A stretch of DNA of 64,000 bases from SAR202 cluster bacterium bin127. GTDB taxonomy: Bacteria > Chloroflexota > Dehalococcoidia > Lucifugimonadales > Lucifugimonadaceae. This document shows, one piece after another, positions 4,253-51,568 of the stretch. The first letter of the stretch is position 1. Every line of letters starts with the position of its first letter. A program made the position numbers and the translations under genes. The notes below the pieces were generated by a model. It saw only the letters and a program-made list of their open reading frames with translations. It ran no database searches and was not told the origin of the DNA. The stretch is taken from the NCBI GenBank assembly GCA_002239045.1, contig MPNN01000001.1, forward strand, positions 372,001 through 436,000. The letters run 5' to 3'.

Positions 4253-4316
4253 AGCAAACCCCTTTGATGGTGGAGTATCGCGATGTTTCAAGTATAGCGG
4301 TTGCAGAGATCTAGGC

Positions 4317-7154
4317 TTATGCCGGCTCGCGCGAAAAGTTCAGCTGTAGCAGGCGTTCTAGGATGGTGTCGTCGTCGAGTTTGGCGGGGTGCTCGGTCCA
4401 GCCGTAGGCGTCGAATACGGCTTGGTCTAGCTTGGCGTGCCGTCTTGTCAACCAAGGATCACGCAAGTTGTAGATGTGGGTCAGCGTCATTTCTCGGAGC
4501 ATCTCTTTGGGAGTCGATTTGGTGGGGGTAATCACATTGTTTCGCGTTTCCGACAATTCTTTCGCGGCATCTGCTACGGCCTTGAGTTGAGTATCCGACG
4601 GATTTGGAAACGGGAATGTTTCGAAGCAGGTAGTTGGCGTGTAGCGAGATCCCGATTCTCTTTCTCTTAATTGCGAACCTAGAGCCAACGCCCAAACTCG
4701 GTGGGCTTTGGATTGAAGCACTCCGAAGAAGTAATCGTCTTCGCGAGCAAAGGCGACGACAGCATTGCTAGGCAGTGTGTCGCTGGAGACCCACTTGAAA
4801 ACTCTATGTTTGGAAACTTGCGGCGTAACGAGATAGCGGGAGAGACCTGACAACGCGGCACGCAAAGCTGGCCGTGGACGTTGGTGCATCCACCACTGAG
4901 TTCGTGCTTCACCTCGCATTTGGGTTCGTGCGGCTTTTACATGTCGTTGTATGTGAGCGAATGGCGCTATGTAATCGGAAGCTTCGGTTTCTGTCATTTC
5001 AGTACCGAAATCGACGATCCATGAATTGCTGGGTACGCCGACGATGTCTCTAGCGTTAATGAATGGTTTGACGACGTCGCTGTTGGGTTTTGAGTGCGGG
5101 TTCTGCGCGCTGAGCAGTTTGAGTGCCGTCTGTTCATCGAGTTCGAAACTGCCTTGTTTCACTAGCCCTTTGAAGCTGATATTGGCGTTCTTCTTGAGTC
5201 TTCTTGCTAGAGTGAGATTCGCGGCCCGCGAGGTCAGATTTGAGTGGATGATACTGACGGGTTTTCCGTCCAAAGTCAGATTAGTTTCGGTACCGTTATC
5301 AAAACCGATCATGGAGGTGTGAACTGAGGCGCCATCCAACTGCCAGTCTCGATCTGATTCGGCAAAGAATATCTGCCCAATGTCATTGATCATGTCCAAA
5401 ACGGGTCTCGAATCTCCTCCCCGGATGTTTTGCGTGGCTAGCAGTCCAGCTCTGACCTGATCCGATTTGACCACATACCTAGCTGCGTTCGCGAACCAGT
5501 ATGCACACAGGTCCGCGCGGCTGGGCACCAAACCTGACCAGATTTCATAAAGATCCTCGACGTACTCGTCGCCGAGTTGCTGACGCATCATGTAGTTGCC
5601 GAGGAATGGTGGATTGCCGACGATGTAGTCGACATCGGGCCATTCGGCGGGTTTGGGTTTGGGTCCAGTGTTGTCGACGATGGCATCTCGGCAGCCGATG
5701 TTGTCTAGCGGGTCTAGTACGGGGTCGCGGTCTTCAATGTTGCCGACGCGAGCCCCGTTCTGGAGATGGCCAATCCAGACGACGACACTGGCGAGTTGAT
5801 GGGCGTATTCGTCGATCTCGATGCCGAGCAGTTGGCGTGGATGGACGCGCGGTTCTGGAGGATCGATTCCGAAATCGAGGGACCAGGTGATGACCTCTCG
5901 TTCGAGGCTGTGCAATAGGTTTAATGCTACGTAGAGGAAGTTGCCTGATCCGCAGGCTGGGTCTAGGATGCGGACATTTCCCAATCGGTCTATGAAATCC
6001 TGAACTGTGACCTTGGCTAGTTCAGCGTCGGCATCGCTGATAGAAGATTTGATGTTGTCCCATTCTCTTCGGAGTGGTGTCATGACGACGGGCTCTACAA
6101 GCGTTTCGATGTCCTTACGGGACGTGTAGTGTCTGCCGTGTTGCGCGCGTTTTTCAGGATTGTAGACACGCTCAAAGAGCGTACCAAAGATGGCAGGTTC
6201 GATCTGGGACCAATCGAGGGCATCGGCTTGACGTACGAACGGCATTATGGTGTTGCCGATCTGCAGGTTGTTGGGGCGCCCGTCAAAGAGTCCGCCGTTG
6301 AAATGCTTGACGGGTGGGGCCTCGATCGGATCGCCGATACTCATCTTTTGGAATAGGCGGTTTAGCCTGGCCGGAAAAACGGTCGCGGGGAATGTGCCCA
6401 ACTCATGCGTGTATTTGGTCATGAGTTGTTTCGGTAAAAGTCCGACATCGCTGGAGAACATGCAGAAAAGAAGCTGAGAAAGGAACCGAGCGATTTCCAC
6501 GTCTTTGCCAGTGTTGTAATCCTGAAGTTCTTTGGCAATGTTGTTGAAGATGTCGGCCGCCGCCTCTGTGATTTGGTCGGTGGTTCGTACGGGCTCCAAG
6601 TAGTCAGGATCGTAGAAGCAGTAGCGGAGCACTTGGTAGATCGAGAGCGGTGATTGATCTACAACTCCGAGCGAGTTCCTGCGTGTAGCGTTCTGCTCGA
6701 TATCGTGTAAGTCGTCAAGCTCAATGATGTATGTGTCGGGTGCTTTTCCGGTGAAATTGGTATGGATGCGAATGGTTTCAAAATCGGCGACGATCAGCAG
6801 TGGCGGGTTGCCAAGTCCGTCGCGGTATCTGAGGTTCTGGTTGTACGCTGCGTCAAGGTCTAATCCCGGTTTTTTGTACTCCATGATGAAGTGATCGCGG
6901 AGAAAGACGTCGGCTTCACCTTGACTTCCAGTCGCGGTGCGTACGCGCTGATTGAATTCGAAGTCGTGGTTGTCTAGGTCGTCGGAGGGTTTTGGGTGGC
7001 CGACGATCGCGCATAATTCGTTGAAGTGGGCCTGGAAATGCTGGATTTCGTTGCCTTGATAGCTCGTCCATTTGCGTCCGAAATCGGCTGCCAAGGTTTG
7101 AACAGCACTTGGTACATCGCGGGACGGGTTGATTGGTTCATCCATCAGCAGCAT
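4317..7154 (-). CDS. MmeI-type (Type IIL/IIG) single-chain restriction-modification enzyme
   Basis: A 945-residue fused endonuclease/N6-adenine methyltransferase that would cut foreign DNA at a fixed distance from its site and methylate the host site. An N-terminal PD-(D/E)xK nuclease motif is visible (D82, then E92-Y93-K94). A helical spacer leads to the methyltransferase with motif I DPACGSG (398-404) and motif IV NPPF (514-517). The C-terminal third is the target-recognition region, with the FETFPFP segment typical of MmeI relatives, ending in a helical domain. No separate S or R gene is needed or seen. Start MLLMDEP at 7154; an ATG three codons on is equally possible. A -10-like TATACT lies at 7181-7186. 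The YEIG/protease module follows on the same strand. Confidence 0.9.
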   Translation of the reverse strand: MLLMDEPINPSRDVPSAVQTLAADFGRKWTSYQGNEIQHFQAHFNELCAIVGHPKPSDDLDNHDFEFNQRVRTATGSQGEADVFLRDHFIMEYKKPGLDLDAAYNQNLRYRDGLGNPPLLIVADFETIRIHTNFTGKAPDTYIIELDDLHDIEQNATRRNSLGVVDQSPLSIYQVLRYCFYDPDYLEPVRTTDQITEAAADIFNNIAKELQDYNTGKDVEIARFLSQLLFCMFSSDVGLLPKQLMTKYTHELGTFPATVFPARLNRLFQKMSIGDPIEAPPVKHFNGGLFDGRPNNLQIGNTIMPFVRQADALDWSQIEPAIFGTLFERVYNPEKRAQHGRHYTSRKDIETLVEPVVMTPLRREWDNIKSSISDADAELAKVTVQDFIDRLGNVRILDPACGSGNFLYVALNLLHSLEREVITWSLDFGIDPPEPRVHPRQLLGIEIDEYAHQLASVVVWIGHLQNGARVGNIEDRDPVLDPLDNIGCRDAIVDNTGPKPKPAEWPDVDYIVGNPPFLGNYMMRQQLGDEYVEDLYEIWSGLVPSRADLCAYWFANAARYVVKSDQVRAGLLATQNIRGGDSRPVLDMINDIGQIFFAESDRDWQLDGASVHTSMIGFDNGTETNLTLDGKPVSIIHSNLTSRAANLTLARRLKKNANISFKGLVKQGSFELDEQTALKLLSAQNPHSKPNSDVVKPFINARDIVGVPSNSWIVDFGTEMTETEASDYIAPFAHIQRHVKAARTQMRGEARTQWWMHQRPRPALRAALSGLSRYLVTPQVSKHRVFKWVSSDTLPSNAVVAFAREDDYFFGVLQSKAHRVWALALGSQLRERESGSRYTPTTCFETFPFPNPSDTQLKAVADAAKELSETRNNVITPTKSTPKEMLREMTLTHIYNLRDPWLTRRHAKLDQAVFDAYGWTEHPAKLDDDTILERLLQLNFSREPA

Positions 7155-7338
7155 AGATTGGTCTCAGATATGGATGTTTGAGTATAGGCGGATTGATAGG
7201 AGTTAATTTTCGCGCAAGTTGACGGTTCAGTTTAGCGACATGTCAAAGATTCACTCGCCGATTTAGGCCGCAAAGTCGCGATACTCTTCATTGCGTCTCG
7301 TCCAATTGGAGGGGCAACGCAACGGGAAACGAGATTGC

Positions 7339-7659
7339 CTACAGAGCGATCGTGAAGACCGCTAGAGCTACCACAATTCCGGTAGCTATGATGCCCATTT
7401 TGCGGATTTCCAAGGGGAATGTGCGGGCGTAGACTTCGGAGCGTGTCCGTTGCGTGCGGCGTGGGTTGGCGGTTTGCGGTCGGTTCGTGGAAGCCGAAAG
7501 ATTGCGTGGTGCTGGCACCGTTGCCGTGGCGGCCGACGGTGCCGCGATGTCTTCTTCTGGTTGTTCGGGTTGTTGGCGCCGCGCCGTCGGCTCTTCGGTC
7601 TGGACGAAGACGTTAGGTCGTCGTCCGGGTCGGCGTCGGTTTCGGTTGCGAGGTGGCAT
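7339..7659 (-). CDS. Small basic protein with C-terminal transmembrane helix
   Basis: A 106-residue protein of unknown function. The N-terminus is very rich in Arg and Pro (PRNRNRRRPGRR), the middle is a low-complexity Ala/Thr/Pro/Gln linker, and the last 20 residues form a single hydrophobic helix (GIIATGIVVALAVFTIAL) ending at the C-terminus. It would be a tail-anchored membrane protein with a basic cytoplasmic domain, possibly binding nucleic acid or acidic lipids. It lies 64 bp downstream of the cytidylate-kinase-like gene on the same strand and may be co-transcribed. No Shine-Dalgarno sequence is obvious. The frame is favoured over its overlaps because only it gives a clean membrane anchor. 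Confidence 0.5.
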   Translation of the reverse strand: MPPRNRNRRRPGRRPNVFVQTEEPTARRQQPEQPEEDIAAPSAATATVPAPRNLSASTNRPQTANPRRTQRTRSEVYARTFPLEIRKMGIIATGIVVALAVFTIAL

Positions 7660-44763: not shown

Positions 44764-44847
44764 GGTGTTTTCGGGGAACGCTGGAGATGGGTATGTTGGT
44801 ATGGCCTGCTGGGTAGTGCAGGTTTTTGGGTGGTTGGTGGGGGGTAT

Positions 44848-44940
44848 GCCCCCTTTGTCCTTCGGACATTTCCCCCGCGAGCGGGGGCAACCCGAATGGT
44901 TCTCGGACGTTGTCCCTGATTAACGGGGACAAGCCGAATG
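44848..44940. repeat. Two head-to-tail palindromic units next to the structured RNA
   Basis: A third copy of repeat family B (44848-44893) runs into a diverged second unit. Unit one ends gcaacccgaatggttctcggacg; unit two (44911-44940) has ttgtccctgattaacggggacaa, then gccgaatggtt. The 23-bp block in unit two is a 7-bp inverted repeat. The shared ccgaatggtt and the hairpin form suggest a tandem duplication. Unit two abuts the likely 3' end of the structured RNA and might help end its transcription, though it lacks a T run. Confidence 0.55.
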
Positions 44941-45423
44941 GTTATTCATCGCCGCGCTTGCGGGGATTGGACGTGGGCCCGTCCTTTAGTTCCAGCGTCT
45001 GACCACGTTGCCAGACCGTGGGCCCGGAGTTCGGCTGCTTGAGCTGTGCCGCCCTCCATCGCTCGGTTAGTCCCGAGCTGGTGCTGTAGCCGCGCCCTGT
45101 TTGTTGTTGAGGGCCGACGTCTGCCGGATTCACGAACGTTCGCCCAGCCCTTGGACGTCGGTACCACGTGCGTGGTACTGATGTCTGGCTCGTTTTGCGG
45201 CGCCCGCCATAGGCGACGCGACTGGACCTTGTAGCAGCGTTCGTTTCTAACGGTCCCTCCCGACGTTGCATCTTGTTTGCTCAAGGATGCCGAGATCAGT
45301 CTTTGACTGTGTTGCTCTTGTGGTGTTGCGTTCACGGTCTTGGGCTGGGCCTCGGGTTTTTGTCGGCAGGGTCTAGTTGAGGTCGTATCCGCACCCGTCG
45401 GCGCGGCGATGTTTTTGAATTCA
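44941..45423 (-). ncRNA. Unidentified structured RNA of about 480 nt
   Basis: No convincing protein lies here. On the minus strand a strong promoter would start transcription near 45423. The two ends pair perfectly over 11 bp (45401-45411 with 44947-44957). Between them are many local helices: 45297-45309 (5-bp stem, AAA loop), 45268-45290 (8 bp, one bulge), 45242-45252, 45224-45228 with 45252-45256, 45205-45215, 45161-45178 (7 bp), 45094-45098 with 45110-45114, 45061-45078 (6 bp) and 44969-44984. Loops are A-rich on this strand. RNase P and tmRNA were tested by eye: the conserved GAGGAAAGTCC box and a tRNA-like end or Ala-Ala tag are missing. Some hairpins have G-U pairs only if read on the plus strand, so strand is not certain. 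Confidence 0.6.
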
Positions 45424-45429
45424 TGTTCT

Positions 45430-45457
45430 ATGATAGCACGGATGTGTTGGTTGTCAA
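45430..45457 (-). promoter_or_regulatory. Strong promoter for the structured RNA
   Basis: On the minus strand a perfect TTGACA (45452-45457) and TATCAT (45430-45435) are spaced 16 bp apart. The expected start lies about 12 nt before the 5' arm of the end-closing helix. This is among the best promoters in the window. Confidence 0.6.
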
Positions 45458-45714
45458 GTGTGAACTATGATGAGAATGATTTTGAAGGATTGGAATGATG
45501 GGGTGTGCCCTGTTTGGGTTGGCGGCGGTTTGTTGGGGGTTGGTTTCTTTTGGTTGATGTGATCTAGGATTCGGCGTCGGATGCAGGTGGTGGACATTCC
45601 GACGTAGATGTAGGTATCAGATGATTCGCCGTATTCGGGCGATTCCCAGATGGCGTAGACGCCCTGTAGGTCTTGGGAGAGGTTTTGGACTTGGGCGCGG
45701 GTGAAGAGGCGGGG
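45454..45714 (-). pseudogene. Remnant of a GIY-YIG nuclease-domain protein
   Basis: Between stop codons at 45715 and 45454 the minus strand encodes LSQDLQGVYAIWES ... YIYVGMSTTCIRRRILDHI, a clear GIY-YIG nuclease half (GVY and YVG spaced as in UvrC and homing-type nucleases). There is a stop directly upstream and no ATG, GTG or TTG start before the motif, so the gene is 5'-truncated or frameshifted. Its last codons overlap the -35 box of the structured-RNA promoter. Its 5' side runs up to the restriction-modification gene on the other strand. Confidence 0.6.
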
Positions 45715-45837
45715 CTAAGTCCGGTTCGCCATTTCGTTTTAAGGAAACGGTCATCAGCGAATAGAATCTCTGTTCAGCACCTTTCAAGTACCACGAATGA
45801 TTTGAAGCCAGCAAGTTTGAGAACTGGTAAGTCGACC

Positions 45838-48660
45838 ATGCCTAGACGAAACAACAGCGAAACCAACCGCGAAGAGGCGTTCAACGTCGAACTCGCACGA
45901 ATGCTCAGGGATCGCGGTATTACCGCACGCGCTGAGCGTCGGAGTCGGCAAGGCATCCCTGACGTTCGAGTCGAATTGAGGACTGGCGACGACGTGATTT
46001 TGGAATGCAAGTATGCTGGTTCCGTAAGCGCTTTGGAAAACCAACTCGATGAACGATTGGGTTCGTTCCCGGATCATTTGGGGATTTTGGGAATCGTATA
46101 CCCTGATCGTTTTCGCGGCGCTCCGGATGTTGATGCCAGCCTCGCGAACGCCAATGATATCGAGTGGTGGTTGCACGGGGTTAGAGGTAAGGCAGAACAC
46201 GATCGTCGAGTCCGGACCGGGTCGGTGGTTGATCTTGCAGATCACTTGCGAGTTCTCCCATTGGAGATCGAAGGTGTTGATCGGGTAGATGCTGCAGCCG
46301 CTGTAGTAGGTTACGCGCTCGAAGAATCGGCGCAGAAAATCGCTGGGCATGCCCGAATTGCACGCCGGATATCGGACATCGTTGCAGATTCGGACAAGGA
46401 GGAGGATGAAGCAGCTGCACTGAGAATAGCGTGTCTGGTGCTTTTCAACGCATTGGCGTTTCAAGATCGATTGGCTGCGGTTGACAAGAATGTTGCCACC
46501 GTTACCGAAGCGATTAGAAACGGACTCGATGGACTGCACGACGTTTGGCTTTACGTGATGGATGAGATCGATTATGTGCCAGTGTTCGAATTGGCCGGTC
46601 ACATCGTGGATGTGCTCAAAGACGGTCCGCCAGAAGTCCAAATGCCGGTTGTCGATCCTTTAGCGAAGGCCGTGAAGGACACTCGGACACTTGAAGGACA
46701 TGACCTAGCCGGCCGATTGTTCCACACTCTTTTGACGGACGCTAAGTTCACGGGCGCTTACTACACATCTGTTCCGGCAGCTACCATGTTGGTTCAGCTG
46801 GTGTTCGAAGGCTGGCCAAATGGTGTTGACTGGTCGGACCATGAATTCCCGGGTTCGCTCAATGTAGCTGACCTCGCGTGCGGAACCGGAACTTTGTTGA
46901 TGGCGGTTGCCGTCGAGGTAGAGCGCCGACATACGGCGGCTGGGGGAACGGAGGCCGCGGCGCTTCACAAAGCTATGGTTGAGCAAGCATTGCATGGATA
47001 CGACGTGCAATTGTCGGCATTGCATTTCGCGGCTACCAGTTTGGCGATGCTCAATCCTGATATCAAGTTCGATCGCATGAGTCTATACGAGATGGCGCTG
47101 GGTGCTCAGGGCTCGAACATCTTGCTAGGGTCATTGGAGTTCCTAAACCAAGACGAAGCTGCTGTGCAATACGCTTTGTCTTCCGAGGAGACTGGCGTGG
47201 CCACGCGAGATGCTAGGAGAGTTTCCGGCCGGGGTTCACGGGGCGTCGAAGTGGGTGAAACCGCGAAACTACCGGATCTTGATCTGGCAATAATGAACCC
47301 TCCTTTTACGCGGTCAGTGATCGGCAATCTGTTGTTTGGCAGCCTACCGCAATCGGAGCGTCGAAAGCTACAAGACGAACTATCGCGGCGACTAAAGACG
47401 ATGCAGGCGTCATCGACAGCCGGTCTTGGCGCGGCTTTTGTAGCGGCTGCATCACCCAAACTCCGCCCGGGCGAAGGCCGTTTGGCGTTGGTGTTACCGG
47501 TTACTGTTTGTACCGGCCCGTCTTGGTTGCAGACGCGCGCGTTAATAGAGAACGACTATGTGCTTGACGTGGTGGTGGCTTCTCACGATCCTACGCGTTG
47601 GAACTTTTCAGACAGCACCGACCTGTCGGAGGCGTTACTGGTCGCAACGCGGCGACCTGAGAATGGTAATGACGTGGAATATCGGACCACTTTTGCGAAT
47701 CTTTGGCGGAATCCGAAAGGGGTATTGGATGCGCATCTCGTAGCAGAAGCTGTCAACACGACACAACCGGCGAGGATCGAGGATACGGGCACTGCCCTTT
47801 TAGAAGTTGATGGCGAACATGTGGGTGAAGTGTTTTCGATTCCGGAATCGATACTCAGGAGCAAGCAGTGGGCCGGTGTGCAGTTCGCCCGTGCAGATAT
47901 CGTTCGGAGCGCGCTCAAGCTTTTGGAAGGTGGGGAAGTGGGGATACCCGGCGAGCCTCTTATCGGCCGTGTACCGATGTGTAGGCTCGATGAAATCGGA
48001 AAGATAGGGCCGGACATCAGGGATGTACGCGACGGATTTGAACCAACAGACGCGGTAACGGCCTACCCGATGGTTGCTAATCACGACACTAACAAGAGAC
48101 GCAGTTTGACAACTGCGCCTGACAGATATTTGGCGCCGCTAGTTGCGCCGCGTCCGGGTCGCAGACTAAAGTCAGTCGGTCAACTGTGGCCGAAATCAGG
48201 TCGTTTGTTACTAGGCGCACGATTCCGACTTAACACAACGAGAGTTGTTGCCATGCGGTCTGAGAGTCTTGTATTGGCCAGTATGTGGTGGCCAATACGA
48301 ATTGAAGACGCAGACCTTGAGAAGGTATCAGCACTATGGTTCAATAGCAGCTTAGGCCTTCTAACTCTAATGGCGACGCGTAACACTACGATGGGAAGTT
48401 GGGTTCAACTGAAGAAGGCAGACCTCAGGTATCTGCCAATTCTCGATCCCCGCCGATTGACGGACGCTCAACTCAAGGGTTTGTCTGACCTATTCGACGA
48501 GCTAGCGGATGCGGAGTTTGAACGGTTGCCGGGCATGGCGGATTGCCCTGCTCGGACAGCATTGGATGAGGGATTGTCGGAGATTCTGGGGTTGCCGGAT
48601 TTGCGGGGGTTGAGGGTTTTGTTAGCTTCGGAGCCGGTGGTTTGTAATGTGGGGTTGTGA
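45838..48660 (+). CDS. Single-chain restriction enzyme / N6-adenine methyltransferase (Type IIG-like)
   Basis: A 940-residue enzyme that I read as a fused nuclease and DNA methyltransferase. The N-terminal PD-(D/E)xK site is GIPDVRVEL ... ILECKYA (D42, E56, K58). A helical region (about 130-300) leads to the methyltransferase: FTGAYYTSVPAA, motif I DLACGTG (345-351) and motif IV NPPF (487-490). The C-terminal 350 residues should be target recognition. It is of a different lineage from the MmeI-type gene at 4317. The ATG (MPRRNNSET) fits the nuclease domain; the open frame extends back to 45673 without support. A PglX-like role in a larger system cannot be excluded, but no partner genes are seen. 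Confidence 0.85.
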   Translation: MPRRNNSETNREEAFNVELARMLRDRGITARAERRSRQGIPDVRVELRTGDDVILECKYAGSVSALENQLDERLGSFPDHLGILGIVYPDRFRGAPDVDASLANANDIEWWLHGVRGKAEHDRRVRTGSVVDLADHLRVLPLEIEGVDRVDAAAAVVGYALEESAQKIAGHARIARRISDIVADSDKEEDEAAALRIACLVLFNALAFQDRLAAVDKNVATVTEAIRNGLDGLHDVWLYVMDEIDYVPVFELAGHIVDVLKDGPPEVQMPVVDPLAKAVKDTRTLEGHDLAGRLFHTLLTDAKFTGAYYTSVPAATMLVQLVFEGWPNGVDWSDHEFPGSLNVADLACGTGTLLMAVAVEVERRHTAAGGTEAAALHKAMVEQALHGYDVQLSALHFAATSLAMLNPDIKFDRMSLYEMALGAQGSNILLGSLEFLNQDEAAVQYALSSEETGVATRDARRVSGRGSRGVEVGETAKLPDLDLAIMNPPFTRSVIGNLLFGSLPQSERRKLQDELSRRLKTMQASSTAGLGAAFVAAASPKLRPGEGRLALVLPVTVCTGPSWLQTRALIENDYVLDVVVASHDPTRWNFSDSTDLSEALLVATRRPENGNDVEYRTTFANLWRNPKGVLDAHLVAEAVNTTQPARIEDTGTALLEVDGEHVGEVFSIPESILRSKQWAGVQFARADIVRSALKLLEGGEVGIPGEPLIGRVPMCRLDEIGKIGPDIRDVRDGFEPTDAVTAYPMVANHDTNKRRSLTTAPDRYLAPLVAPRPGRRLKSVGQLWPKSGRLLLGARFRLNTTRVVAMRSESLVLASMWWPIRIEDADLEKVSALWFNSSLGLLTLMATRNTTMGSWVQLKKADLRYLPILDPRRLTDAQLKGLSDLFDELADAEFERLPGMADCPARTALDEGLSEILGLPDLRGLRVLLASEPVVCNVGL

Positions 48661-48829
48661 GGGGGGAGGCTGTTGGTTGATGGGATGAGGGATTAGAGTG
48701 CGAGAGGTTGTGGTGCTGGTGTGTGCGGGTGAGTGAATCGTGGTCGATACAACCTGAGATAAAATGAAACTTATGTGCTGACGAAGCGTTATCCTGCCTT
48801 GAAACAACCGGCTTGGAGGGTCCAATCAG

Positions 48830-49663
48830 GTGGCTGCAAATAGTCTGAAGTTCAAACAAAGAATCTTGACGCTGAACCGCGTCGTCATCGATACCTTTGA
48901 CGATTATAGATGGCAAGAATTGGGTATCTTGACGAACGAGCTTCCAATGATCGAGAATCATCGATATTTGCTGAGGAGTTTACGTTGGGGAGATGACGAC
49001 TACTCTGGCCACTCTTTAAGAACCCTTAGAAAGATAGTTGGCGATGACGACACCGTCCTGAATTCGATTGAAGAGTTTGTGGGCGTTGAAGAGTGGTTGA
49101 AGAAAGAAGAACCGGACACCTGGCGAGCGATGTACGGCAACAATACATCGCCTGAACTAGAAGTGATCGAAGAAGTAGCGACTCGACTCGACATTTGGGA
49201 ATTGAATAGGCATGCCGGTAGGATTCGGCGTGGATTGCGCGAAGACCCGGAACAAGCGATCGGTTCCTCAAAGGAACTGCTGGAAACGGTGTTCAAATCA
49301 ATTGTGAGTGTAGAAGGCGAAAAAGCAAATCAAGAGACAACTGCACTCGTAAAAGAAGCGTGGCAGAAACTGGATCTAGATGCGGATGGGGTATTGCAAG
49401 GCGCGCCTGGTCGTGAAACCATCAGGCGGACACTCAGCAATCTTGGTCAGATCGTACAAGGCGTTTCGGAAGTTCGTAATCTTTACGGAACGGGTCACGG
49501 ACGTTATAAATCGAAGGAGTTGGAAATCGTCCATGCGCGTTTGGTCGTGAATGCCGCAATCACCTTAGCGACCTATTTATTGGAAGTCTCAGAGAATGTG
49601 CTTAACGATGTGCAAAAAGATTCGAGCGACAATGCAACTCAGGATGAGGGTTTGCCGTGGTGA
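48830..49663 (+). CDS. Abortive-infection C-terminal domain (Abi_C) protein
   Basis: A 277-residue protein whose last half matches the Abi_C family: IGSSKELLETVFKSI (144-158), a middle helix, VRNLYGTGHGR (215-225) and HARLVVNAAITLATYLLE (235-252). The R216-x6-H223 spacing resembles the HEPN ribonuclease motif, so it may be an RNA-cutting defence effector; this is inference. The N-terminal half is helical and unrecognised, perhaps a sensor. GTG start with GGAGGG nine bases upstream. It follows the restriction-modification gene by 169 bp on the same strand, and that gap has a TAAAAT -10-like box near 48757. Confidence 0.8.
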   Translation: MAANSLKFKQRILTLNRVVIDTFDDYRWQELGILTNELPMIENHRYLLRSLRWGDDDYSGHSLRTLRKIVGDDDTVLNSIEEFVGVEEWLKKEEPDTWRAMYGNNTSPELEVIEEVATRLDIWELNRHAGRIRRGLREDPEQAIGSSKELLETVFKSIVSVEGEKANQETTALVKEAWQKLDLDADGVLQGAPGRETIRRTLSNLGQIVQGVSEVRNLYGTGHGRYKSKELEIVHARLVVNAAITLATYLLEVSENVLNDVQKDSSDNATQDEGLPW

Positions 49664-49709
49664 CGTTGCTGCCAAGAAATGCTTAGATGTGGCGGTGCGA
49701 AGAACGACC

Positions 49710-49830
49710 TCTCCCTGATCACCCTCACCCTAGCCCTCTCCCATCGAGGGAGAGGGGATTGCACCGCCCTGCCGCTCTGGATTCCGGCTTTCGCCGGAAT
49801 GACGGAGGTTATGCATAGCACCCGAAGGGG
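49710..49830. repeat. Composite dispersed repeat (families C and A)
   Basis: The 172-bp gap after the Abi_C gene is filled by a composite: ccctcaccctagccctctccc ... gagggagaggggatt, then the palindrome attccggctttcgccggaat-gacgg (49781-49805), then a tail tagcacccgaaggggg. Palindrome and tail recur together at 59111-59160. Confidence 0.7.
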
Positions 49831-49835
49831 GTGTT

Positions 49836-50225
49836 TCAATCCTCGTTTGTTATCGGTTTGATACTAACTGTGCCGTTGTGGATGGCTCGGATGTGGATAT
49901 CGTTGTGTGCGAGCAACTTCATTCCGATTGTTGGTACGCTCTCCGAGCGATGAACTGTGATTTGGCGACGTTCTCCGAACCAATCGACGTTGGCCAAGTA
50001 GGATTCGAAGTAAACGACGCTACTGTCACCCAGTTCCATTCGGCTGCTCCCAGCCTGCCGGAGGCCTAAACCGTCGATTGCTCTGCCAGATAGGGTGAGG
50101 AATTCGGTGAAGCCAGTATCGAGCGTCGCTCTTAAGGGCCGACGTTGTCCGTCGATGCCGTAAATCGCGATGTTGACGTAAATTCGGAGCGACTCGCCCA
50201 ATGAGGCGACTACACCTTGATCCAC
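49836..50225 (-). CDS. Retropepsin-like (clan AA) aspartic protease, second copy
   Basis: A 129-residue clan AA protein with the catalytic triplet D36-T37-G38 in ATLDTGFTEF, followed by strands with VVYFESYLANVDWFG, and the C-terminal PTIGMKLLAHNDIHIRAI ... GTVSIKPI pattern common to this group. No signal peptide. GTG start, overlapping the upstream YEIG gene by 16 bp. Same order and strand relation as the pair at 3534-4252, though the two proteases are diverged (mostly motif-level identity). The role in the module is unknown. Confidence 0.75.
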   Translation of the reverse strand: MDQGVVASLGESLRIYVNIAIYGIDGQRRPLRATLDTGFTEFLTLSGRAIDGLGLRQAGSSRMELGDSSVVYFESYLANVDWFGERRQITVHRSESVPTIGMKLLAHNDIHIRAIHNGTVSIKPITNED

Positions 50226-50491
50226 GAATCGTCTTCCTCTGGTTGTCCACCCCAGTAACCGACGGTGACAGGCCCGTGTCGCAAGAATACGATTTCGGCA
50301 TCTGGGATTCGTTGGGTGAGCCGTTCGAACAGATCTATGTAGTCACCGCCGATCTCGTACTCGCCGGAGTTGACGTCGACGGCGAGCATCATCCCGAGTT
50401 GGTCTTCGGTCAGCTGATGCTTGATGCGTTCGTGGTAGAGCTTGGTGCCGAGTTCGCCGACGTGTGATCTTTCTTCTTGGGTTCGGACCAT
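50210..50491 (-). CDS. Small YEIG-motif protein, second copy
   Basis: A 93-residue protein homologous to the one at 3911-4252. Shared features, in order: a helix with LYHERI (IYEEQL in the other), LAVDVNSGEYEIG (43-48 is GEYEIG), about 12 residues, RIPDA (61-65), then a hydrophobic strand ending VGYWGG. It is shorter at both ends. AAGG seven bases before the ATG is a good ribosome-binding site. The start of the retropepsin-like gene lies within its end, so the two should be translated together. Function unknown. Confidence 0.72.
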   Translation of the reverse strand: MVRTQEERSHVGELGTKLYHERIKHQLTEDQLGMMLAVDVNSGEYEIGGDYIDLFERLTQRIPDAEIVFLRHGPVTVGYWGGQPEEDDSWIKV

Positions 50492-50519
50492 GATTTCGCC
50501 TTAATGTCCCTTGTAGTTA

Positions 50520-50772
50520 CTTTACCATCGGAGGGAGAGGGGATTGCGCTTGCGCTGGCCTGCCCCTCTGGATGGACGTTCCGTCCGCTGAAGCGCCGGC
50601 TTTCGCCGGAATGACGTGGGGGTTCGCTGGCGCGCACCCCCTTTAGTTTCCCCTCAGAGAGGGGGAGGAAAATGGATGTGTTGTCGATTCTGGATTCCCG
50701 CGTGCGCGGGAATGACGGGCTGTTCACTGGCGCGCACCCCCTTTAGTTCCCCCTCGGAGATGGGGAGGGATG
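50520..50772. repeat. Cluster of dispersed repeats with a duplicated 75-bp composite
   Basis: No gene lies here. Two near-identical composites follow each other: palindrome family A (50596-50616 and 50694-50717), then ggcgcgcaccccctttagtt, then a hairpin with ccct-agaga-ggggg-type arms, ending near 50668 and 50770. A family C fragment (gggagaggggatt) starts the cluster. It separates the protease module from the amino-acid transporter operon. Confidence 0.7.
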
Positions 50773-50776
50773 TTGA

Positions 50777-51568
50777 CTACAGAATCTGATCCAAGAAGAG
50801 TTGGGTTCGGTCTTCGGTGGGGTTGGTGAAGATGTGGTTGGGGGTGTTTATTTCTACTAGTTGGCCTTCGTCGAACATGGCCATGCGGTCGGCTACTTCT
50901 CTTGCGAAGCCCATTTCGTGGGTTACGCAGAGCATGGTCATGCCGGTGTCGGCGAGTTCTCGCATGACGTCGAGAACTTCTTTGATCATTTCGGGGTCGA
51001 GTGCTGATGTGGGTTCGTCGAAGAGCATTATTTCGGGTTGCATGGCGAGGGCTCTTGCGATGGCTACCCGTTGCTGTTGGCCGCCGGAGAGTTCGGCGGG
51101 GTATTTTTCGGCTTGTTCGGGGATACCGACGCGTTCGAGGAGGGACATTGCGAGGTCGTCGGCTTCGGCTTTGGGTAGGTGTCGGACGCGTTGTGGCGCG
51201 AGGGTGATGTTGCCGAGGACGGAGATGTGGGGGAAGAGGTTGAATTGTTGGAAGACCATGCCGACTTCGCGGCGGATGGCGTCGAGGTTGCGGAGGTCGT
51301 TGGTCATCTCGATGCCGTCGACGATGATTTTGCCTTGCTGGTGCTCTTCGAGGCGGTTGATCATGCGGATGAAGGTTGATTTGCCGGAGCCGGAGGGTCC
51401 GAAGATGACGACTACCTCTCCCCTCTTTACGGACATGGTGACGTCGTTTACGGCGCAGAAGTTTCCGAACCATTTGTAGACGTTTTCACAGACGATTATG
51501 TCGTCGCGTTCTTCGAGGGGGACGTTGCGGATGTCGGGGTTGGTTACGGAGATGGATTCGGTGGTCAT
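50777..51568 (-). CDS. aapP: General L-amino-acid ABC transporter, ATP-binding protein
   Basis: The ATPase of an Aap/polar-amino-acid uptake system, 263 residues. Walker A GPSGSGKS (57-64), Q-loop FQQFNLFPH, signature LSGGQQQ (160-166), Walker B IMLFDEP (180-186) and the H-loop VTHEMGFA are all intact. It is last in a minus-strand operon with two permeases and two binding proteins. The N-terminus is about 20 residues longer than in many homologues. Confidence 0.94.

Follow-up and report, generated by a model that had tools for sequence, protein, structure and literature searches.

A genus-restricted, multicopy family of large structured RNAs adjoins defence-gene insertion sites in Lucifugimonadaceae

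Results

We report a stand-alone, promoter-driven family of structured RNAs that is restricted to one genus of the Lucifugimonadaceae and is present in multiple copies at partly shared chromosomal sites; its transcription is inferred from the promoter. One copy lies in the window, the 64,000-nucleotide stretch of SAR202 cluster bacterium bin127 analysed here (contig MPNN01000001.1, positions 372,001 to 436,000; coordinates without a genome or contig label are those of the window). At this locus the minus strand encodes the RNA within a conserved unit of approximately 44945-45459 that includes the promoter. The RNA was assigned to 44945-45423 (minus strand) based on the alignment of homologous copies, covariation and a folding energy of -193 kcal/mol, against an average of -161 for shuffled sequences (z = -4.8; 0 of 100 shuffles at least as stable). 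Its start at about 45423 is inferred from the promoter, and its 3' end, likewise inferred, was placed at or shortly after the closing helix. The sigma70 promoter (45457-45430, minus strand) consists of a -35 box TTGACA (45452-45457) and a -10 box TATCAT (45430-45435) separated by a 16-nt spacer, and matches 11 of 12 consensus positions. The -35 box is kept in nearly all intact copies and is degenerate in three type-B copies; TAATAT is the -10 box of most other copies. By alignment, promoter, RNA and closing helix were found to be conserved across copies as one block.

The closing helix P1 spans 11 bp, with CAUCGCCGCGC (45411-45401) paired to GCGCGGCGAUG (44957-44947), both on the minus strand. 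Two further domains were defined on this strand by covariation and folding. A middle three-way domain (45143-45226) is closed by UCCAG/CUGGG, carries invariant GAGCCAG and CAAGG segments, and includes a hypervariable peripheral hairpin (45155-45184) that ranges from 23 to 221 nt across copies and is often made of dispersed genomic repeats. The 3' core domain (44991-45134), on which covariance models R1 and R2 were based, has four hairpins with an invariant GGCUAC-GC and a GGUCUGGCRACG loop. These four motifs are the near-invariant loops of the family.

Several other elements were observed around the locus. Spaced GGAT repeats (GAACTAGGATTTGAAGGATTTGTAAGGAT) abut the promoter at 45459-45500 and are found upstream of most copies. 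Short dispersed repeats (GAACCATTCGGGTT...GGAAATGTCCGAAGGACAAAGGGGG), present at 44840-44940, trail the RNA in many copies and occur genome-wide in these genomes. A degenerate GIY-YIG nuclease remnant (GVYAIW...YIYVGMS) with N-terminal stops lies immediately upstream of the RNA promoter at 45454-45740 on the minus strand.

Covariation was examined in a MAFFT alignment of 24 diverse cores that was built without reference to structure, with slid and shuffled controls. In the 3' core, 94.6% of cells were paired compared to 79% in shuffles and 31-46% when partners were slid, and 80 double-change cells were detected compared to 28 in shuffles, with double changes in 14 of the 25 pairs. The five-pair helix that closes the middle domain was paired in 100% of 60 cells and had double changes at four of its five pairs. 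P1 covaries between subtypes (e.g., UGCUGCGCAG/CUGCGCAGCA versus CAUCGCCGCGC/GCGCGGCGAUG). G-U pairs occur on the minus strand only (U-G in 22 of 24 sequences at one pair); thus, minus is the transcribed strand. Covariation beyond phylogeny, on an alignment independent of structure, meets the criterion for a structured non-coding RNA. The 5' third was too diverged for a machine full-length alignment of all subtypes, and structure there is limited to P1 and to P2, the latter supported by eye and by co-folding without a machine alignment.

Long open frames of 155-222 codons are present in the copies. A protein-coding reading was rejected, as mismatches between copies are flat over codon positions (a non-coding substitution pattern), the frame is broken by stops or a 1-nt deletion in some copies, and low T content (11-16%) accounts for the long frames, with comparable frames arising in 0.4-11% of shuffles. 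The preliminary description, made from sequence alone, had proposed a TTGACA/TATCAT promoter with a 16-bp spacer, ends that pair over 11 bp, and a 480-nt region with no credible protein. All three held: the promoter is conserved in other copies, P1 covaries in other subtypes, and no selection on a reading frame was found.

Neither strand of the window matched any Rfam 15 family even at an E-value of 10, and ten further copies gave only sub-threshold chance matches. RNase P RNA was rejected based on the lack of a match to RF00010 or RF00011 and the location of the true gene at G000:C7:271045 (285 bits; G000 being the genome of the window). tmRNA (RF00023, tRNA-like ends, tag reading frame) was likewise rejected, with none detected by ARAGORN in the window and the true gene found at G000:C20:189876. 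The Rfam covariance models of GOLLD, ROOL and OLE matched neither the window nor the ten further copies. No Rfam match to HEARO or omega-RNA was detected, and a Pfam scan confined to the nearest neighbours, not the whole genome, revealed no IscB or TnpB. Group I and group II introns also gave no Rfam match; divergent relatives cannot be wholly excluded. The RNA family is, thus, a new class with respect to Rfam within a known kind, the large structured bacterial RNAs; its function is inferred, not shown.

The preliminary description of an unidentified structured RNA that is neither RNase P RNA nor tmRNA is upheld by these results. Its likening of the RNA to the large ornate bacterial RNAs is apt as an analogy in size and architecture but does not extend to sequence. 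The stray plus-strand GGCTGCTTGAGC, which had been said to resemble an RNase P segment, is the complement of part of one RNA hairpin. An Rfam match, absent covariation or selection on a reading frame had been named as grounds for refutation; all were checked and none refuted the proposal. The multicopy nature of the RNA, its concerted evolution and the adjoining defence-insertion hotspot go beyond what had been described.

The RNA belongs to a family of approximately 470-730 nt that is present in all seven genomes of the genus, some of which come from sponge-derived genome projects. A DNA search of 60 relatives revealed six copies of high identity (88-99%), along with more distant ones, in a congener assembled as a single contig (G004). 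More copies were found in G000; several lie at contig ends, where repeats that break an assembly are expected. Covariance model R1, built on the 3' core, detected copies in all seven genomes. By a deeper look with R2, 30, 24, 18 and 11 matches (a few of them weak) were found in four genomes of the genus, the 18 being those of G004. Three weak false rows remained in the alignment behind R2, which nevertheless recovered the known copies. Outside the genus, only matches of 21-28 bits with broken cores were detected among genomes of the order (243), family (36), class (about 390) and phylum (399), and these are taken as chance matches. The other 11 genera of the family yielded no convincing copy, and phage and plasmid records gave no match. 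Degenerate-pattern matches in scattered unrelated bacteria and one viral contig were rejected, as none was backed by a covariance model.

Several diverged subtypes coexist within one genome. Further diverged subtypes with their own conserved -35 and -10 boxes (e.g., TTGACTCCAGCACGAATGTTGTAGTAC) were observed in G005 and G006 (L189-L199) and in G004 (L181-L184). At 1.866 Mb of G004 (L034), a copy adjoining a methyltransferase gene that is about 70% identical in DNA to that of the window has lost its promoter and 5' end; thus, single copies are dispensable.

Several of the G004 loci recur with the same neighbouring genes in G000, G002, G005 or G006, and the flanking proteins at loci common to species are about 80-90% identical. 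The window locus, beside radical SAM and smpB genes, is common to G004 and G006. In the tree, copies cluster by genome more than by locus: the G006 copy at the window locus groups with copies of G005 and G006, and, likewise, the copy of G005 at the 819-kb locus and that of G002 at the 1918-kb locus each group with their own lineage. Copies are, thus, homogenised within a lineage, either through concerted evolution by gene conversion or through replacement. Homogenisation is slow, as the subtypes of the near pair G000 and G004 remain at their loci.

Comparison of G000 and G004 revealed a one-sided insertion hotspot immediately upstream of the RNA promoter. At all four loci comparable on both sides, a cargo of 3.3-5.8 kb was present in one genome only, between flanks of 91-96% identity, and started 49, 932, 249 or 10 bp upstream of the RNA promoter. 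Within about 257 kb of collinear DNA, eight indels of at least 1.5 kb were identified, four of which lie next to RNA promoters in less than 2% of the length; the 1-kb upstream span used in this count was chosen post hoc, after the data had been seen. In the window the cargo occupies 45506-50778, where 470 bp are found instead at the orthologous locus of G004. It encodes, on the plus strand, a 940-aa DNA methyltransferase or type IIG-like restriction protein (45838-48660; PADLOC MTase_II, 7e-10) and a 277-aa AbiJ-like abortive infection protein (48830-49663; Pfam AbiJ_NTD5, 5e-22, and Abi_C, 3e-21; PADLOC AbiJ, 6e-13). A gene about 70% identical in DNA to that of the 940-aa protein adjoins another RNA copy of G004.

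Cargo at other copies includes a SacI-like restriction-modification pair, type IV CBASS, other methyltransferases, AbiU/AIPR, GmrSD, an HNH protein with a methyltransferase, and a PglX-like protein. The type IV CBASS set (QueC, TGT, CD-NTase and effector; L033:10849-14162, at about 1.65 Mb of G004) is divergent from its RNA copy. Transposase genes (IS1595/ISXO2) were found in two cargos. A defence gene was detected upstream of 10 of 23 copies, usually within 1 kb, compared to downstream of 0 of 19; downstream was limited to the one or two nearest genes, such that the two sides were scanned to unequal depth. When the same rule was applied to each side of 20 further copies, 69 PADLOC models matched upstream and 7 downstream (E-value 1e-8), a trend and not a gene count, as several models may match one protein. 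In over half of the copies no defence gene could be recognised, and empty cargo sites retain an intact RNA and promoter. Elsewhere in the window (4299-7340), a 3-kb indel relative to G004 lies away from any RNA copy.

Discussion

We favour, with confidence no better than evenly balanced, a model in which the RNA is abundant and acts in trans as a structural RNA, and its loci double as landing sites. Abundance, dosage and action in trans are inferred in the absence of expression data and of a partner protein. According to this model, the RNA would act in trans as a structural RNA or RNP scaffold, and its numerous copies with strong promoters, held similar by gene conversion, would serve a need for dosage, as with rRNA and tRNA genes. 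The DNA upstream of the promoters may be a tolerated landing site for foreign defence modules because, we propose, copies are redundant and actively transcribed. Cargo would probably arrive by homologous recombination between dispersed repeats (RNA copies and the adjoining short repeats), and the RNA loci would anchor cargo much as tRNA genes anchor islands elsewhere. Strong expression, dosage-driven multiplicity and recombination-borne cargo are all inferred. Against the model, plain dosage does not require coexisting diverged subtypes, insertion points lie at no single fixed distance, and some copies have no defence cargo. Read-through effects cannot be excluded, as 13 of 19 downstream genes point in the direction of the RNA.

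A possible alternative is that a mobile element (IscB/TnpB omega-RNA, group I or II intron derivative, or retroelement) spread by transposition and was then fixed, the RNA being its residue or a non-autonomous copy. Consistent with this are the high copy number and several subfamilies per genome, which imply that spread must have occurred at some stage, a GUGCG near the 5' end that recalls group II intron starts, and the IS1595/ISXO2 transposase genes in two cargos. By contrast, loci are common to species with about 80-90% identity between flanking proteins, no reading frame accompanies the RNA, Rfam gave no intron, HEARO or IS605-type match, the RNA is absent from phage and plasmid records, and empty cargo sites retain it. 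A currently mobile element is disfavoured based on the conserved loci and the lack of a travelling reading frame.

A functional link between the RNA and the defence cargo is unlikely, whether the RNA were a landing-site determinant that recruits cassettes or an RNA component or regulator shared by neighbouring defence systems with divergent promoters. In favour of such a link, defence genes occur on the promoter side only (10 of 23 versus 0 of 19), usually less than 1 kb away, with insertion polymorphism exactly there. However, more than half of the copies lack a recognisable defence gene, cargos are mechanistically unrelated, and insertion points range from 10 to 930 bp. That the RNA is part of any one defence system is disfavoured because it persists intact, with its promoter, at empty sites. 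A bolder version, in which the RNA or promoter region actively directs cassette capture as a dedicated docking site, is also improbable but not excluded; if true, about twenty RNA-marked sites in each genome of the genus would together form a distributed defence-cassette system.

A cis-acting, riboswitch-like 5' leader is very unlikely: in 13 of 19 copies the nearest downstream gene shares the strand of the RNA, at a distance of 130-1000 nt, but it is convergent in the other 6, and the downstream genes are too diverse (DNA polymerase I, radical SAM, GreA, aminotransferase, glycosyltransferase and others, all unrelated) and too often opposite in orientation. A repeated DNA element of MITE or REP type, with hairpins that act as DNA only and no RNA product, is also very improbable, as the multicopy state, the resemblance of the closing helix to a terminal inverted repeat and the adjoining short repeats are outweighed by a conserved promoter that points into the element, one-strand G-U pairs (U-G in 22 of 24) that favour RNA, conserved unpaired loops, a tolerated variable loop and conserved locations.

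Among known systems, GOLLD, ROOL and OLE (PMC12286853) are alike in having several hundred nucleotides, multiple helices, a conserved core with a less conserved region, no protein and a function that remains open. The new RNA differs in having no sequence or Rfam match to them, in its restriction to one genus and in adjoining defence insertion sites; GOLLD and ROOL are associated with phages or prophages and tRNA islands, whereas the new RNA is chromosomal and multicopy. HEARO and the IscB/TnpB omega-RNAs are also multicopy structured bacterial RNAs of similar length, but the new RNA has no Rfam match to them, no IscB or TnpB gene at the copies examined, and locations that are inherited, not mobile. 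Group I and II introns, including circularly permuted ones (PMC8637638), are similarly large, structured and present in several copies, and the GUGCG near the 5' end is a further likeness; the new RNA, by contrast, has no Rfam intron match, recognisable domain V or host-gene insertion. Like tRNA and tmRNA genes, which are island and defence hotspots, it is a conserved RNA gene that marks recurrent cargo insertion; unlike these, it is not a tRNA, cargo enters upstream of its promoter and not at the RNA 3' end, and no integrase was seen.

Few large, elaborately folded bacterial RNAs of unknown function are known, and every one has come as a surprise. To these the new RNA adds up to about two dozen copies per genome, concerted evolution, restriction to a genus and a one-sided link to defence insertion. 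Strong expression is predicted from its copy number and conserved promoter, and its loci offer a tangible setting in which to study what determines where defence cassettes insert.
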